Assembly: GCA_024398875.1 (NCBI GenBank) | Contig: JAKSIJ010000013.1 | Span: 1-64,000, forward strand | Direction: 5' to 3' | From: Fibrobacter sp. | GTDB lineage: Bacteria > Fibrobacterota > Fibrobacteria > Fibrobacterales > Fibrobacteraceae | Length of the DNA: 64,000 nt | Shown here: positions 16,408 through 21,751 of the stretch, piece after piece | How the letters are laid out: each line of letters opens with the position of its first letter | How positions within the stretch are numbered: position 1 is the stretch's first letter | Position numbers and translations under genes: made by a program | Notes under the pieces: generated by a model | Told to the model about the DNA's origin: nothing | What the model saw: the letters and a program-made list of their open reading frames with translations, nothing else | Databases searched by the model: none

Positions 16408-17553
16408 ATGGATGATGTTGTAGAAGAACTGATGATGCCTGTGGTGAGTTTTGGCTCTCCCGTAACGACACTGCTTTTCAAGCTTGAACGTCTCCGGGGT
16501 ATCGCCCTGTCGGGCACTACCCCAAGGGTATGGTTCTTCCAGCTCCAGCGTAGTTTCCAGTTGCTGGAGGCTATAGGTTCTTCAAGGATCGAAGGAAACA
16601 ACACCACTGTTCTAGATTACGTTTCGAAAGAAAACTTGCCTCCTGAAATCAGGGAACGGGAAGGATTCGCTGAAATTGGCAACCTGGAAAAGGCCCTGCA
16701 GTTTATTGAAGAAAGCACCGCACCTATAGACGAACATTTTATTTGTGAGCTGCAGAAAATGGCCGTAGAAGGGCTTACGCAGGAAGGTGACCCAAATGCA
16801 GGTTGCTATCGCGGCATTCCCATTTCCATTTCTGGTTCTAGCCATGAGCCTCCCGCAGCAGACGATGTCCCCGCATTTATGCGGGAACTTGTAAAGTTCA
16901 TCAATAAGGAATGCGAACAGCAATACGACCTTTTGAAAGTTTCTGTTGTGCATCACCAGTTCGTATGGATCCACCCCTTCCGCAACGGAAACGGCAGAAC
17001 GGCAAGACTATTGACCTATGCCATGATTGTACGCCTTTTTGATGTTCGGCAGTCCAGGCTGTTTAATCCTACGGCGGTATTCTGCTCTGATCGCAACAAG
17101 TACTATGAGATGCTGAAGGTTGCAGACGCCAAGAACAATGAGGCTATGGTTCAGTGGTGTTTGTTCGTGTTAAAAGGACTTTTGGACGAATTGCAAAAGA
17201 CCGAGAAACTGACAGATGTCAATTATGTGAGAAAATCCATTTTGGAACCCATGTTGCAAGATTCCTTAGGCAAGGGTGTAATGGGGAAGGACATCTACTC
17301 GGCCTTGTTGGTGGCGCTAGAAAAACCCGTATTCCAAGCCTCAGACTTGGCTGGTGTTTGGCCTAATGCTTTCACCAGGTCTAGGTATATTCGTAGTATG
17401 CTGGATGCTGGTTTCATTGCGCCTGTAGCCGAAGGCACTAGGAAGTATTGCTTGAAATTCACGGGTGGTCCACTGATGGTAAGCCTTATCAACATGTTGT
17501 ACCAACAGGGGTTCTTACCGGAATCCATGCTGAAAAACGAAAAAAATAGATAA
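16408..17553 (+). CDS. Fic-domain protein (probable AMP-transferase) with C-terminal winged helix
   Basis: A 381-residue class II-type Fic protein. The active-site loop HPFRNGNGRTAR begins at His189; the usual Asp/Glu is Asn here. An N-terminal autoinhibitory motif SSRIEGN with Glu62 is present. Residues about 275-370 look like a winged-helix DNA-binding region (MGKDIYSALLVALEKPVFQASDL, interrupted here for brevity only in naming). Such proteins usually transfer AMP to target proteins and many repress their own gene. The repeat array upstream fits autoregulation. No separate antitoxin gene is adjacent. Confidence 0.85.
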   Translation: MDDVVEELMMPVVSFGSPVTTLLFKLERLRGIALSGTTPRVWFFQLQRSFQLLEAIGSSRIEGNNTTVLDYVSKENLPPEIREREGFAEIGNLEKALQFIEESTAPIDEHFICELQKMAVEGLTQEGDPNAGCYRGIPISISGSSHEPPAADDVPAFMRELVKFINKECEQQYDLLKVSVVHHQFVWIHPFRNGNGRTARLLTYAMIVRLFDVRQSRLFNPTAVFCSDRNKYYEMLKVADAKNNEAMVQWCLFVLKGLLDELQKTEKLTDVNYVRKSILEPMLQDSLGKGVMGKDIYSALLVALEKPVFQASDLAGVWPNAFTRSRYIRSMLDAGFIAPVAEGTRKYCLKFTGGPLMVSLINMLYQQGFLPESMLKNEKNR

Positions 17554-17739: not shown

Positions 17740-18156
17740 TCATTTGAACGAGATTTCAAGTTTTTTCCCGATGTAGTTGGCAATTCGGTGTAGCATTTTG
17801 ACGGAAAGGTTTGCGGAAGGATCTTCAAGCCTTTGGTATGCCTGGGGCTGCATGCCCATTTCCTTTGCTGCGATACTTTGTGGCTTTGCTCCTCTGTATG
17901 CCGCGAGCGTTAACGCCACCGCCAATTCCGGGTCCACGTCGATAGAATACAGGCCTTTTGAATGGTTTGGTTTAGTTTTGCTTGCAGGAAGGGGCTCTCC
18001 GTCAAAAACGTTCCTTAAAGTCAATTCAAGAGCGTCTTTGGCCATCAGTAAGGCTTCTTCCAGGGAGTCTCCTTCTGAAAAACATCCTTCAATGTCTGGA
18101 AATTCCACGGAAAATCCGCCGTCTTTTTCTTTGGTAAGTTTAGCCGTATAATGCAT
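17740..18156 (-). CDS. hicB: HicB-type antitoxin with C-terminal helix-turn-helix, no HicA partner
   Basis: A 138-residue protein. Residues 1-55 are a HicB RNase-H-like fold (HYTAKLTKEKDGGFSVEFPD, GCFSEGDSLEEALLMAKDAL). Residues about 80-135 are a Cro/CI-like helix-turn-helix (GAKPQSIAAKEMGMQPQAYQ). HicB proteins neutralise the mRNA-cleaving HicA toxin and repress the operon, but no hicA is found on either side. The start codon lies 3 bases beyond repeat copy A, whose complementary strand supplies an AGGG-type ribosome site. It is the last intact gene of the repeat-separated series. Confidence 0.85.
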   Translation of the reverse strand: MHYTAKLTKEKDGGFSVEFPDIEGCFSEGDSLEEALLMAKDALELTLRNVFDGEPLPASKTKPNHSKGLYSIDVDPELAVALTLAAYRGAKPQSIAAKEMGMQPQAYQRLEDPSANLSVKMLHRIANYIGKKLEISFK

Positions 18157-18159
18157 GTT

Positions 18160-18195
18160 GTTTTCCCTGTGTTCAAAAAGAGCCCCTATAAGATA
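18160..18195 (+). repeat. Repeat copy A
   Basis: 36 nt, differing from copy B at three positions (8, 9 and 11). It ends 3 bases before the hicB start codon when read on the minus strand. Confidence 0.85.
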
Positions 18196-18228
18196 AAAGA
18201 CATAACCATAATTTAAGTTATGTCTTTT
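18195..18228. terminator. Bidirectional terminator abutting repeat A
   Basis: A perfect 12-bp inverted repeat, AAAAGACATAAC at 18195-18206 and GTTATGTCTTTT at 18217-18228, with T runs on both strands. It would stop transcription of the membrane-protein gene that ends at 18260. Its first base is the last base of repeat A. Confidence 0.75.
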
Positions 18229-18259
18229 TCAAAAAAACATATATCGTCACATAATTTAA

Positions 18260-18703
18260 TCACGGAGGAGGAATCGTATAAAAAGCAGGACATTTAGACG
18301 GATCTTTTGCCTCTTCACTCATAATTACAAATATAAATATCACAAAAGAAACCGGTATATTTACAATCGACATGACTAAAACAACATTCACCACATCAAA
18401 AGCAAACCAACAAAAAACACAAACACACAAAGAAAAAATAAAGTTGTAAGCGGAAGCTAATGGAGCGTAACTTGTCTTTTCAGACAAATATCCAAATACA
18501 TACCCATAAAACGGTACCAAGGAGAACACCCAAACCAAGAAATTATCGGTATAAAGAGGGCTTAAAATTCCGGTCCAGAAAAGAATAAACGGAACAACAA
18601 GACCAAGGACAACACCCTTGCGGTCTTCAATTTTAAGATTCAATGTCATTTTTCCGTTTCTCATACCATAAATATACATACAAAAAATGTCATAAGTTGT
18701 CAA
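18260..18703 (-). CDS. Small multi-pass membrane protein (cassette between repeats A and B)
   Basis: A 147-residue hydrophobic protein with about four membrane segments (VVLGLVVPFILFWTGILSPL, FLVWVFSLVPFYGYVFG, AYNFIFSLCVCVFCWFAFDV, VLVMSIVNIPVSFVIFIFVI). The proposed start is a TTG at 18703 that directly touches repeat B; the repeat gives GAGG five bases before it. A longer frame reading through the repeat is unlikely. ATG codons nine and more codons later are alternatives. Composition is AT-rich compared with the host genes. Function unknown; immunity or effector roles are only speculation. Confidence 0.6.
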   Translation of the reverse strand: MTTYDIFCMYIYGMRNGKMTLNLKIEDRKGVVLGLVVPFILFWTGILSPLYTDNFLVWVFSLVPFYGYVFGYLSEKTSYAPLASAYNFIFSLCVCVFCWFAFDVVNVVLVMSIVNIPVSFVIFIFVIMSEEAKDPSKCPAFYTIPPP

Positions 18704-18739
18704 GTTTTCCTCGGGTTCAAAAAGAGCCCCTATAAGATA
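18704..18739 (+). repeat. Repeat copy B
   Basis: 36 nt, identical to copy C. The minus strand reads into the membrane-protein gene; the plus side abuts the truncated frame at 18740. Confidence 0.9.
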
Positions 18740-18964
18740 AAGGGAAACATTCGTCAAAGACAAAAACTATTTGAATTTCTTGAATTACAGGATTCTTCAA
18801 AGGATGGAAATGGATTTCAAGAATTAACGGAACCTATTTTGAAAAGCCGCTTTTTCACCAAAGTCGGTAGAAAAGAATGTGTTGATTTCTTGATTGACAT
18901 AAAAAAATTAAAAAGCTCCCATAAATTCAGGGAGCTAATAGGATTCTTAAACACAAGGATATAA
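18740..18964 (+). pseudogene. 5'-truncated gene fragment X1
   Basis: An open frame of 74 codons that runs out of repeat B without a start codon and ends at 18964. Its tail (FLIDIKKLKSSHKFRELIGF) is homologous to fragment X2 at 19524-19628, with many synonymous differences, so both derive from a real gene. The DNA near 18914-18936 also forms a hairpin (AGCTCCC with GGGAGCT) followed on the minus strand by a T run. That hairpin would terminate the convergent 75-aa gene. Confidence 0.55.
18914..18936 (-). terminator. Terminator of the 75-aa gene, inside fragment X1
   Basis: AGCTCCC at 18914-18920 and GGGAGCT at 18930-18936, followed on the minus strand by TTTTTAATTTTTTT. The same structure is conserved in the second paralogous unit at about 19579-19600. 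Confidence 0.6.
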
Positions 18965-18980
18965 GTAATGACAGTTATTT

Positions 18981-19208
18981 CTAACCGCCACGTAATTTTT
19001 TCCAATAAGGGTTTTCCTTGTCAAACAATTCCTTTTCATCTTTAGTGAAATTTTTAGGATAATCACCGAAAATAAACAAAATTTTTTTCTTGTCAAAAGA
19101 CACGGCTTCAGATCCAAATTCATCCTCGAATTCAACCCACCAGATCTTATCCCCTTCATGCTTCTTATAAAACTCGAACTTTCTCGTCTCTTTGTCAACC
19201 GTAATCAT
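18981..19208 (-). CDS. 75-aa protein, paralogue 1 of a small charged family
   Basis: Starts MITVDKETRKFEFYKKHEGD and contains FDKKKILFIFGDYPKNFT and ELFDKENPYWKKLRGG. It is a close paralogue of the 77-aa protein at 19642-19875. It is highly charged with no signal or membrane segment. It has an AGAGG ribosome site and a consensus-like promoter (see 19226-19254) rather than a repeat upstream. A phage gene fragment lies divergently behind it. The FDKEN-PYW ending resembles small uncharacterised families; no function can be assigned. Confidence 0.75.
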   Translation of the reverse strand: MITVDKETRKFEFYKKHEGDKIWWVEFEDEFGSEAVSFDKKKILFIFGDYPKNFTKDEKELFDKENPYWKKLRGG

Positions 19209-19225
19209 ACTTAACCTCTCCCTCT

Positions 19226-19254
19226 AATATACCTCTTTTCCCAAGGAAATGCAA
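19226..19254 (-). promoter_or_regulatory. Promoter of the 75-aa gene
   Basis: On the minus strand, a -35 TTGCAT (complement of 19249-19254) and -10 TATATT (complement of 19226-19231), separated by 17 bases. It ends 17 bases before the start codon. Confidence 0.6.
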
Positions 19255-19258
19255 CCCC

Positions 19259-19491
19259 ATGGCAGATATCATCAACGCAACCATAGACGACAAACAGTTC
19301 GAAGTGTATGTCATGATGATGAAGGAGCGCTCCGAGAACCTGAAGCCGGTGCTCACCGCTGCCGGTAATCTTGCCGTGAAAAGCGTAAAACAAAACTTCC
19401 GCGAAGGTGGCCGCCCTGAACGCTGGATTCCATCCAACAAGCCGAAGGGTAAAACTCTCGTCGGAACGGGAGCACTCCAACGTGGAATACA
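19259..19491 (+). pseudogene. 3'-truncated phage virion-morphogenesis (Mu gpG-like) fragment
   Basis: 77 codons from MADIINATIDDKQFEVYVMM. The pattern LKPVLTAAGNLAVKSVKQNF, then GRPERWIPSNKPKG and LVGTGALQRGIQF, matches the N-terminal part of phage tail-completion/virion-morphogenesis proteins. The gene is cut exactly where repeat C begins at 19492; the frame reads 12 codons into the repeat and stops. The rest of the phage is absent, so this is a captured or leftover fragment. Confidence 0.65.
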
Positions 19492-19527
19492 GTTTTCCTC
19501 GGGTTCAAAAAGAGCCCCTATAAGATA
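19492..19527 (+). repeat. Repeat copy C
   Basis: 36 nt, identical to copy B 752 bases away. It is bounded on the left by a cut phage gene and on the right by truncated fragment X2. Confidence 0.9.
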
Positions 19528-19628
19528 GAAGAAAGCTAGAAAGTATTGACGTTCTTATAGATATAGAAAAATTAAAAGACTCCCCGAAATTCAGGGAGTT
19601 GCTCGGATTTTTTAACACAAAGAGGTAG
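19528..19628 (+). pseudogene. 5'-truncated gene fragment X2
   Basis: About 34 codons in frame, beginning inside the end of repeat C after an in-frame TAA, so no start exists. VLIDIEKLKDSPKFRELLGF then FNTKR and stop match fragment X1. It is cut at a different point of the gene than X1. It contains the ACTCCC/GGGAGT hairpin that, on the minus strand, serves as terminator for the 77-aa gene. Confidence 0.5.
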
Positions 19629-19641
19629 CTTATTTCAAGAA

Positions 19642-19875
19642 TTATTTCTCTTTACCAAATTTTTTTGCCCAATATGGATTTTCTTTGTCAAACAAATCTT
19701 TTTCCTCTTTGGTGAAATTCTTTGGATAGTCTCCAAACAAGAATAAAATTTTCTTCTTATCAAAAGAAACAGCATGGCATCCAACAATACCGAAATAGTC
19801 AAGATGCCAAATTTTATCCCCTTCATGCTTCTTATAAAACTCGAACTTTCTCGTTTCTTTGTCAACCGTAATCAT
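19642..19875 (-). CDS. 77-aa protein, paralogue 2 of a small charged family
   Basis: Starts MITVDKETRKFEFYKKHEGD like its paralogue at 18981-19208. It diverges in the middle (HLDYFGIVGCHAV) and ends ELFDKEN-type (DLFDKENPYWAKKFGKEK). The ATG lies 2 bases beyond repeat D, whose complement gives GAGG seven bases upstream. Unlike paralogue 1 it has no separate leader region, so the repeat appears to have replaced it. Function unknown. Confidence 0.75.
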   Translation of the reverse strand: MITVDKETRKFEFYKKHEGDKIWHLDYFGIVGCHAVSFDKKKILFLFGDYPKNFTKEEKDLFDKENPYWAKKFGKEK

Positions 19876-19877
19876 GC

Positions 19878-19913
19878 GTTTTCCTCGGGTTTAAAAAGAG
19901 CCCCTATAAGATG
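19878..19913 (+). repeat. Repeat copy D
   Basis: 36 nt, two differences from copy B (positions 15 and 36). It abuts the 77-aa gene start on the minus strand. Confidence 0.85.
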
Positions 19914-19977
19914 AAAAAATCAAAAATTCCGCAGTTGTGGAAAAAACTGAGGAACTTTTGAAATTTAGAAAAAGAGG

Positions 19978-20427
19978 CTATTTCATTCCTAATGGATATA
20001 CGCCTGAACGAGTAAGTATGTATTTGGCGTTTACATCTTCATTCAGTGTACTATAAACCCAAACAGGACAATCTAAGGATACGACTGGTGTTTTTTCGTT
20101 TTCAATAAGCTCTATTTTTAGCGTGTCTTTTATAGCGTAGACTCCGATTGATTTTACATTATCTTTTGAGCAAAGTAAGTACGAAGGAAATGTAAAACGA
20201 GCTTTCTTACCATCGCTACTAATAAAGACAGTGTCGATGCTAGCATGGTATTCAGTTTCTGCGCGATCTATAATACAGTTTGTTATTGAATCCAGCGATA
20301 GAGTTTGTTCATCGTAATTAAGGGATGTGTCATAGTGAAAAATCTCCCCTGAATATGATTCACTAGAATCATCTGAGCAAGCAACGAAAGAAAGGACAAA
20401 TATTAAAAAAGATAGAAAGATTTTCAT
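19978..20427 (-). CDS. Small lipoprotein (cassette between repeats D and E)
   Basis: A 149-residue protein with signal peptide MKIFLSFLIFVLSFVAC; the Cys at residue 17 is the likely lipidation site, followed by DDSSES. The rest looks like a beta-rich domain with paired cysteines (NCIIDRAETEYHASIDTVFI, LLCSKDN, LDCPVWVY). An AAGGAG site precedes the ATG. The start lies 34 bases from repeat E. It has the general form of Fibrobacter surface lipoproteins; no family is recognised. Confidence 0.65.
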   Translation of the reverse strand: MKIFLSFLIFVLSFVACSDDSSESYSGEIFHYDTSLNYDEQTLSLDSITNCIIDRAETEYHASIDTVFISSDGKKARFTFPSYLLCSKDNVKSIGVYAIKDTLKIELIENEKTPVVSLDCPVWVYSTLNEDVNAKYILTRSGVYPLGMK

Positions 20428-20461
20428 AAACTGCTCCTTTTATTTGCAGGGTGTACTATAG

Positions 20462-20497
20462 GTTTTCCTCGTGTTCAAAAATAGCCCCTATAAGACG
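20462..20497 (+). repeat. Repeat copy E (cas-proximal, most diverged of A-E)
   Basis: 36 nt with four differences from copy B (positions 11, 21, 35 and 36). It lies 58 bases from the cas2 stop. In ordinary arrays the end most distant from new insertions tends to decay, so the leader could be on the other side; this cannot be settled here. Confidence 0.8.
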
Positions 20498-20555
20498 TCC
20501 TTTGCCAATCTACCTTATTTTATGCGGTTTTGCAAGCGATTTGCCGTTGAAAAAA

Positions 20556-20867
20556 TCAGAAAAATTCGATGAAATCTTTACTTTTTGGCCAAATTTTGGG
20601 CGGCTTAGTGCTTCCAAAATGGCTGTAGATTTCGTTGAATTCCCTGTCTGCCATGCCGAACAGGCAGATTGTTGACCGGGGGCAAATCATCGTGGCGATT
20701 CTCGCCTTGTGCATGTTCCCGTTTTTGATGGTGGTGCAATACCTGGCGTACATGCCTCGCTGGATTTTTGAAAAGCCGTCTTTTTCGAATTCCGCTACGA
20801 AGTCAGACATGTTTTTACGACCGCTCCTGCAATGTCTTGGAAAGTCGAATACTGCTACTATCCACAT
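20556..20867 (-). CDS. cas2: CRISPR-associated protein Cas2
   Basis: A 103-residue protein. It starts MWIVAVFDFPRHC, with the conserved Asp8 after the first strand, then DGFSKIQRGMYARYC and TICLFGMADREFNEIY, which form the ferredoxin-like fold of Cas2. Cas2 dimers hold two Cas1 dimers together during spacer integration. The start overlaps the 3' end of cas1 by 10 bases; a longer frame beginning at 20945 would lie inside cas1 and is rejected. The sequence type fits type II systems. Confidence 0.85.
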   Translation of the reverse strand: MWIVAVFDFPRHCRSGRKNMSDFVAEFEKDGFSKIQRGMYARYCTTIKNGNMHKARIATMICPRSTICLFGMADREFNEIYSHFGSTKPPKIWPKSKDFIEFF

Positions 20868-21751
20868 ATAACTCTCGGATAGGTGTGCGCCTTGGTTTCG
20901 CCTGCGGAAAATTTTGCCACGGATGCGGCTGTGTAGGTGAGGCATGTTCCCAACTGGACCATTTGTTCTCCGAATGGAATTTCCGTGTAAAAAATTTCCA
21001 GGAAGGCGTGCTTGACATCTTTCGTCAGCTTGCGCTGTTTTTGCCCCATAAGTCGGATTACGACCTGGTCAACAAATGGTCGGTACGGTTCCATGATGTC
21101 GTCGGCCAGCGGAAAAGCGTCGTAGTAGTTGCGGTGGAATATTCCCAAGGCGGGGAGGAGTCCGCTTCCCATGAGGGCGCGTGCGGTTGCTGCCCGCAGT
21201 ATCGTGTAGCCATAGTTCAGAAAATTGTTTGGGTATTCTCCGAAACGGTCGCGGACGAATCCTTTACCCATGAGCTCTTTCCAGTAGATTTGTGCGGCGT
21301 GTCCTTCGCAGTTTGTCGTATCGCCGCTGCGGACGTTGTTTACATAGCGGTTTAGTTTGTTTGAGTTCTTGCCAAGTGATTCCAGCAGTTGCGACTGATT
21401 TCGAATTTTCGTTTCCACGACATTTTTCCACATCTGTTTTTTTGTGGGCTCGCTCGCCTCTAGTTGCAGGCGGAAGTATTTTTCTTGCTTGCAATTTGCG
21501 TCAAGGTTCATGAGCATGGAGGCCGGCATGTGCTTTTGGTCGCAAAAGACCACGGCCACATTGTTTTCGGCGAGTTCTCCCAGCAGCGGGATTGTCATGC
21601 TCACGGAATGGTTGTCCACGAGAATCATGGCGATGTCCTCGATGGCGCGGAAATGTTCATGCTCAGGATTGTCTTTGTAGGAGATGTTCATTTGCCCGTT
21701 TTTCAACGACAGTTGAACGGCGTTTTCGAAAATAAGGGTTTGCTTTGGCAT
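20858..21751 (-). CDS. cas1: CRISPR integrase Cas1 (type II-like)
   Basis: A 297-residue Cas1. The metal-binding catalytic residues are intact: Glu149 (NCEGHAAQIYW), His206 (GIFHRNYYDAF) and Glu221 (ADDIMEPYRPF). These closely match positions known from type II Cas1. NYGYTILRA is also typical. It has an AAGGAG site five bases before the ATG. No cas9, csn2 or cas4 lies upstream; the next gene is an acyl-CoA ligase. It is thus an intact adaptation pair without effector in the window. Confidence 0.95.
   Translation of the reverse strand: MPKQTLIFENAVQLSLKNGQMNISYKDNPEHEHFRAIEDIAMILVDNHSVSMTIPLLGELAENNVAVVFCDQKHMPASMLMNLDANCKQEKYFRLQLEASEPTKKQMWKNVVETKIRNQSQLLESLGKNSNKLNRYVNNVRSGDTTNCEGHAAQIYWKELMGKGFVRDRFGEYPNNFLNYGYTILRAATARALMGSGLLPALGIFHRNYYDAFPLADDIMEPYRPFVDQVVIRLMGQKQRKLTKDVKHAFLEIFYTEIPFGEQMVQLGTCLTYTAASVAKFSAGETKAHTYPRVICG

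Follow-up and report, generated by a model that had tools for sequence, protein, structure and literature searches.

A Cas1-Cas2-linked repeat array in Fibrobacter that appears to store captured genes instead of RNA guides

Inspection of a 64,000-nucleotide stretch of Fibrobacter sp. DNA (the first 64,000 positions of contig JAKSIJ010000013.1; hereafter the window) reveals genes that are cut exactly at the edges of a short repeated sequence, and raises the question of what kind of array these repeats form and how the DNA between them arrived. The repeat, GTTTTCCTCGGGTTCAAAAAGAGCCCCTATAAGAT and variants of it, is 35 nt long and is present in five copies between positions 18160 and 20496 (0.00 expected by chance), all in one orientation and separated by 351–753 nt. 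Positions 18160–20555 thus comprise five repeats, four inserts of 351–753 bp and a conserved leader of about 60 nt, with type II Cas1-Cas2 before the leader and no Cas9. The features, in order of position, are as follows.

17740–18156, minus strand: HicB-like antitoxin/HTH gene (PF15919, 1e-10; phrog_497), its ATG 3 nt beyond the distal repeat
18160–18194, plus strand: repeat 5, leader-distal, 3 mismatches
18195–18703: insert 4, 509 bp, with a membrane-protein ORF at 18260–18679 (minus strand)
18704–18738, plus strand: repeat 4
18739–19491: insert 3, 753 bp, with X1 at 18740–18964 (plus), an intact DUF7675 gene at 18981–19208 (minus) and a 5′ fragment of a Phage_tail_S gene at 19259–19491 (plus)
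19492–19526, plus strand: repeat 3
19527–19877: insert 2, 351 bp, with the MuF C-terminal fragment X2 at 19527–19628 (plus) and an intact DUF7675 gene at 19642–19875 (minus)
19878–19912, plus strand: repeat 2
19913–20461: insert 1, 549 bp, with a lipoprotein-like ORF of 149 aa at 19978–20427 (minus)
20462–20496, plus strand: repeat 1, leader-proximal, 35 nt
20497–20555, minus strand: leader, about 60 nt, pointing into the array and conserved before the first repeat in most arrays
20556–20867, minus strand: cas2 (PF09827, 5e-5, at the cut-off; TIGR01573, 26.3 bits with a cut-off of 24.5), found at the same position in other loci
20858–21751, minus strand: cas1, type II, 297 aa (PF01867, 1.4e-30; TIGR03639, 294 bits with a cut-off of 120)

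The start of cas2 is inferred, the methionine opposite 20867 being residue 27 of the longest ORF. Pfam and PHROG searches gave no match for the lipoprotein-like ORF of insert 1. The small membrane-protein ORF of insert 4 has DNA similarity (73% over 184 bp) to an insert in genome G036 (L109:5762–6202), and by eye there are membrane proteins like that at 18260–18679 in inserts of L057, L095 and L112. Whether the HicB-like gene is simply flanking DNA or an older captured insert that lacks its far repeat is undecided; a gene for a Fic-domain protein (16408–17553) adjoins the array flank.

The earlier note on this DNA reported three gene fragments that end at repeats, and this is borne out. X1 is open from 18740, at the edge of the repeat at 18704–18738, and runs for 74 codons to a stop at 18962–18964; the phage gene beginning at 19259 runs for 78 codons and then into the repeat at 19492; and X2 is open from 19527 to 19628. 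The same note held X1 and X2 to be homologous, with about 74 and 34 codons remaining, and of this the homology, the different cut points and the 74 codons stand, while X2 has 33 codons and a stop. Both are C-terminal remnants of a MuF-like minor head protein from a phage (503 codons when uncut), X1 corresponding to approximately residues 424–503 and X2 to approximately residues 477–502 of the prophage protein, and the third fragment is residues 1–77 of Phage_tail_S, cut after 77–78 of 167 codons. Next to each X fragment lies an intact DUF7675 gene, a pairing that the earlier note had missed; in insert 2 this gene starts 2 nt from the repeat.

Uncut relatives, for which the note had proposed a search, lie in a Mu-like prophage (L199; G000:C12) of the same genome (G000; 99.3% complete, 90 contigs) and extend beyond the array junctions. 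The prophage genes are ordered portal (PF06074), MuF-like protein (503 aa, PF04233), DUF7675 (77 aa, antisense) and Phage_tail_S (167 aa, PF05069). The insert at 18739–19491 is 100% identical to the prophage over the first approximately 240 nt from the repeat edge, the prophage running on past the junction with unrelated sequence, and identity falls to about 60–80% through DUF7675 and the MuF C-terminus; to judge from these identities, the insert probably came from a phage that shared the backbone of this prophage but had another toxin/immunity module. In a second array of the genome (L013, contig C23) the same region has other cut points, with the tail gene cut after about 30 codons, as against 78 in the window.

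Genes cut at repeats, and the occurrence of the repeat at many chromosomal places, would also be expected if the 35-nt sequence were a small mobile element, transposable or promoter-like, that had landed again and again in existing genes. We regard this as highly improbable. The sequences flanking a repeat do not add up to a single uncut gene, and at 19492–19526 the 5′ end of the tail gene faces the 3′ end of the MuF gene, which are not neighbors in that order in the prophage; moreover, copies within an array all have one orientation and lie behind a leader. The earlier note's argument against repeats that merely evolved in place as promoters likewise gains support, from syntenic arrays with approximately 93% identical flanks but different inserts (e.g. 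L084/L085/L102 and L073/L075/L076/L091/L111) and from the lack of any match to the repeat in 2.9 million viral contigs. The array Cas1 was not found in viral contigs either.

A pattern search of 61 Fibrobacter genomes identified 227 copies of the repeat in 49 of them, and 70 array segments from 25 genomes provided a set of 87 inserts ranging in length from 56 to 1017 nt (median 440). Several of these match phage or prophage DNA. One insert in L099 matches an IMG/VR contig (L123) over 310 of 310 bp at 100% identity, and one in L109 matches both L203 and an IMG/VR contig (L125) over 1017 of 1017 bp at 99.0% identity, each match ending exactly at the repeat; an L099 insert also matches L206 over 330 of 330 bp (97.9%), up to the repeat edge and no further. 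A comparison of the window array with INPHARED phages gave only two weak Streptococcus phage matches, and an Rfam search gave nothing. Given that the Cas1 is of type II descent, the array could be imagined as an ordinary CRISPR array in decay, in which intervening repeats have been lost such that short spacers now seem long. We give this almost no credence, because the 310- and 1017-bp inserts are contiguous phage sequence at 99–100% identity rather than strings of 30-bp spacers, none of the 87 inserts is a gap of ordinary spacer size (20–50 nt), and the Cas9-linked arrays of the genus keep periods of 65–78 nt.

The phage locus encoding MuF, DUF7675 and the tail protein is the source of 15 inserts in eight genomes, which appear to be independent captures. 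Eleven are in forward and four in reverse orientation, the flank on the start side varies from 2 to 283 nt, and the neighboring genes are truncated, while DUF7675 is intact in all 15. The note's view that pieces of DNA were inserted between repeats is upheld by these observations, in that uncut homologues pass the junctions and a single source is present with many ends and in both orientations. Its idea that the pieces are random needs refinement: the cut points are indeed not fixed, yet the invariable survival of DUF7675 makes retention look selective. Its suggestion that a PAM-like pattern might flank the breakpoints found no support, since neither the 15 nor the 13 junctions compared display one; in this small sample of 28 no base is favored, and microhomology does not exceed chance (matches to the end bases of the repeat are at 24–26%, the chance level). 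Five short inserts (211–272 bp) reach the tail-gene start region and contain neither DUF7675 nor a clear gene (L090:4200–4420, L091:3947–4218, L092:4752–5238, L094:3641–3866).

Variable ends and both orientations also argue against fixed cassettes, and thus bear on whether the arrays are integron-like, with preformed cassettes that carry their own recombination site and are shuffled by a tyrosine recombinase. The units are gene-sized and mostly contain one gene each, the sites are repeated, the leader has promoter-like elements, and there is a modest forward bias of insert genes (47 forward and 25 reverse, p = 0.013, among the 72 inserts with an ATG-initiated ORF of at least 45 aa), all of which an integron would share. 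It is nonetheless very unlikely that these are integrons: no integrase scores above the TIGR02249 cut-off in any of the 61 genomes (Xer-like partial matches are present, as they are in 14 of 14 control genomes), the same phage stretch is found with different ends and in both orientations, the source phages do not contain the repeat, and the repeat has no attC-like architecture (as judged by eye, without an attC model).

The recurrent capture of DUF7675 directs attention to what this gene does. In 66 of 70 IMG/VR viral loci (list count) its neighbor, in either orientation, is a protein that matches the MuF C-terminus over its own last ~170 residues. The MuF C-terminal domain adjoining DUF7675 has an invariant cysteine and histidine (Cys33 and His107), and its structural model is confident (pLDDT 90) but yields only weak matches to papain-like (Josephin) proteins (E 0.007). 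Temperate phages have been described whose MuF polymorphic toxins adjoin a small ORF presumed to confer immunity (Jamet et al. 2017, PMC5576092), and with this arrangement in mind DUF7675 is most likely the immunity gene of the MuF toxin, although neutralization of the toxin is inferred from gene neighborhood alone. The other inserts encode small membrane proteins, lipoproteins and ORFs of unknown nature, many without an identified source or function; as Pfam and PHROG scans of 46 other insert proteins gave only few and scattered matches, we make no general claim on cargo function.

The contents of syntenic arrays differ. Two genomes, G031 and G048, in which the surroundings of cas1 are 98.6–99.4% identical, have the arrangements leader-R-[881]-R and leader-R-[363]-R-[881]-R respectively, where R is the repeat and the numbers are insert lengths. 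The leader-proximal repeats are identical, the insert start is the same, and the difference is exactly one insert and one repeat; this could reflect either a gain at the leader end or a loss, the direction not being shown. No source for the 363-bp insert was found in the 61 genomes. Adjacent repeats within arrays are identical in 20.5% of pairs, compared with 2.1% when the pair comes from different arrays of a genome (p = 8e-8), a pattern that local copying of repeats would produce. Two kinds of apparent insert were rejected: segments of 1.7 kb containing HipA that seemed to be recurrent inserts lie between arrays, upstream of another leader, and were left out of the insert count, and a 7-kb gap in G014 and G004 consists of host genes between two sites. 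The HipA-type segment is 95–97% identical across species and lies just upstream of a second leader-repeat (L060:9140–10857, L082:6517–8235, L095:7475–9189, L089 and L106), as an island shared by several arrays.

The enzyme best placed to have built these arrays is the one encoded beside them, and there are several relevant features. First, the window Cas1 is the sole Cas1 of its genome, and in an alignment of eight array-linked homologues residues E149, H206 and E221, which we take to be the catalytic positions of type II Cas1, are invariant. Second, the order cas1-cas2-leader-repeats is found in 11 loci of the genus, and the distance from the end of cas1 to the first repeat is a constant 364–365 nt wherever cas2 and the locus are intact. 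Third, no match to Cas9 (TIGR01865) was found in the eight Cas1-bearing genomes G000, G021, G036, G048, G057, G022, G031 and G007; where Fibrobacter does have Cas9, it sits with a different Cas1 (about 44% identical) and ordinary arrays. Fourth, the array-linked Cas1s, of which that of G022 is the same as the Cas1 in a record of an uncultured Fibrobacter, form one clade (support 99/98), distinct from the Cas1 that accompanies Cas9 within the genus, and among the matches listed from a collection of 84,980 species almost all other close relatives have Cas9, classical arrays or both. Finally, in 48 of the 70 array segments the first repeat is immediately preceded by the leader, many of the remaining segments being cut by contig ends, and the same leader precedes most arrays without an adjacent cas1. 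Promoter elements resembling TTGCGA-17-TATATT and pointing into the array are present in 40 of 46 leader copies. A sigma-70 scan of the window array region gave no excess of predictions (10, compared with 6.7 in shuffles, sd 2.5), and the leader was not among them, so promoter activity of the leader is inferred, with this conservation as its only support.

Cas1 or cas2 is broken in G031 (L061, G031:C162) and in G007 (L062 and L063), which weighs against Cas1-Cas2 as the builder of the arrays; as an insert of G031 is 100% identical to phage DNA, the breakage may be a recent loss or an assembly error. A repeated element of about 80 bp, AGCGTTCAAGCCGAATGC...GGACGCCAAAGGCGTC, interrupts the G007 cas2 twice (L062:10523 and 10834) and is also present at the end of cas2 in G021 (L053:8035); it looks like a small mobile element.

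The main difficulty with assigning the arrays to Cas1-Cas2 is that most repeat-bearing genomes, nearly complete ones included, have no detectable array-type Cas1. It is clearly present in only 11 of the 49, and undetected in about three quarters; G059 and G060, both 99% complete, have 8–10 repeats without it. This Cas1 may therefore be lost often, be supplied transiently, or not be the sole agent. Draft assemblies may break at repeats; arrays are nevertheless present in genomes of 10–30 contigs. These absences, and the common occurrence of arrays far from cas1, are what would be expected if some other enzyme (an unrecognized recombinase, or phage or host repair) built the arrays and the type II Cas1-Cas2 were a bystander left from a degenerate CRISPR-Cas locus. 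We think this unlikely, though it deserves to be kept in mind. The leader, the repeat duplication, the single repeat orientation and the changing leader-proximal end are traits of CRISPR adaptation, the Cas1 active-site residues are maintained without exception, and repeat number tracks the presence of Cas1, with a median of 8 repeats per genome with this Cas1 and 2 without (p = 5e-5). The monophyly of the Cas9-less Cas1s also counts against it, as does their sister relationship to the Cas1 of a second Cas9-less locus with gene-sized gaps.

This sister Cas1 (support 97/98, on a long branch) is that of Alloprevotella RGIG4970 (L224 = L315), where Cas1-Cas2 has no Cas9 nearby and a repeat of about 36 nt, GGTTTGAAATTATAGAATAAGCATTATGATTAAAAC, occurs at steps of 593 and 2288 nt (L224:8001–9880). 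The evidence for this second case is limited to two good repeats and a weak third in the single array of that genome, and the close relatives of this Cas1 within Alloprevotella do have Cas9.

We consider it likely that Cas1-Cas2 inserts DNA of gene length into leader-repeat arrays, and that phage immunity genes captured in this way are then kept, the integrase activity and the immunity function both being inferences. For the insertion step, the array architecture, the clean junctions and the difference of one insert and one repeat at the leader end are direct observations. As proposed, Cas1-Cas2 (the identity of the enzyme being inferred) would insert linear DNA of about 0.2–1 kb where the leader meets the repeat; neither the orientation of the DNA nor the sequence at its ends would be fixed, and the 35-bp repeat would be duplicated. 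Transcription from the leader, together with a Shine-Dalgarno-like GAGG at the end of the repeat, could then express inserts in the forward orientation, and selection would keep those with a useful intact gene, of which DUF7675 of phage MuF polymorphic toxins is the clearest putative class. On this view the array would be a store of immunity genes taken from phages. Known Cas1-Cas2 measures DNA of about 30 bp, and we know of no mechanism by which it could handle long DNA; with Cas9-linked and Cas9-less forms in one genus, the length ruler of Cas1-Cas2 becomes a testable question. With somewhat less assurance, we favor the broader interpretation that a Cas9-less lineage of Cas1-Cas2 has turned into a gene-capture machine in at least two phyla, pasting gene-length phage DNA into arrays and providing heritable immunity through expressed captured proteins (a protein memory) rather than through guide RNAs, much as an integron might, but with the CRISPR adaptation enzyme.

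CRISPR adaptation is thought to store addresses of about 30 bp that guide a nuclease. If the proposal is true, this would be a second form of acquired bacterial memory, in which a bacterium captures and retains an immunity gene belonging to the phage itself. There would then also be a natural enzyme able to put DNA of gene length into a defined site of 35 bp, and a link between CRISPR arrays and integrons, which have been thought unrelated. A search of the literature, which did not extend to bioRxiv or to most subscription journals, gave no account of Cas1-linked arrays with inserts of gene length, and novelty is therefore not proven.

The system can be compared with four that are known. With casposons and solo Cas1 it shares, by inference, a Cas1-family integrase that acts on DNA longer than a spacer, but it appears to have no terminal inverted repeats or PolB and does have leader-repeat arrays and Cas2. 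The captured locus resembles the MuF polymorphic toxin-immunity systems (Jamet et al. 2017, PMC5576092) in consisting of MuF with a variable C-terminal domain and a small ORF; unlike in the phages, DUF7675 has been excised from the phage into a host array, and the toxin is left only as a truncated tail. As in a chromosomal integron or superintegron, single-gene units lie between site repeats behind a promoter-like leader, and gene content at the same site varies between strains, whereas the Fibrobacter arrays have no IntI, contain a 35-nt CRISPR-like repeat rather than attC, have Cas1-Cas2 in place of a tyrosine recombinase, and consist of units with variable ends, in both orientations, that are cut directly from phage DNA. 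Finally, type II-C CRISPR-Cas has in common with these arrays a Cas1 above the TIGR03639 cut-off, Cas2, a leader before the first repeat, a repeat of one length and orientation, repeat duplication and phage-derived inserts. It differs in that the Fibrobacter arrays have no adjacent Cas9 (and none genome-wide in the eight Cas1-bearing genomes), their inserts are 10–30 times the length of a spacer, they keep intact genes, many of them lie in trans, and no PAM was found. The layout thus departs from type II CRISPR-Cas in two defining features (Cas9 and spacer length) and from integrons in another two (IntI and a cassette-borne site), while it conforms in those of leader, repeat and Cas1-Cas2.
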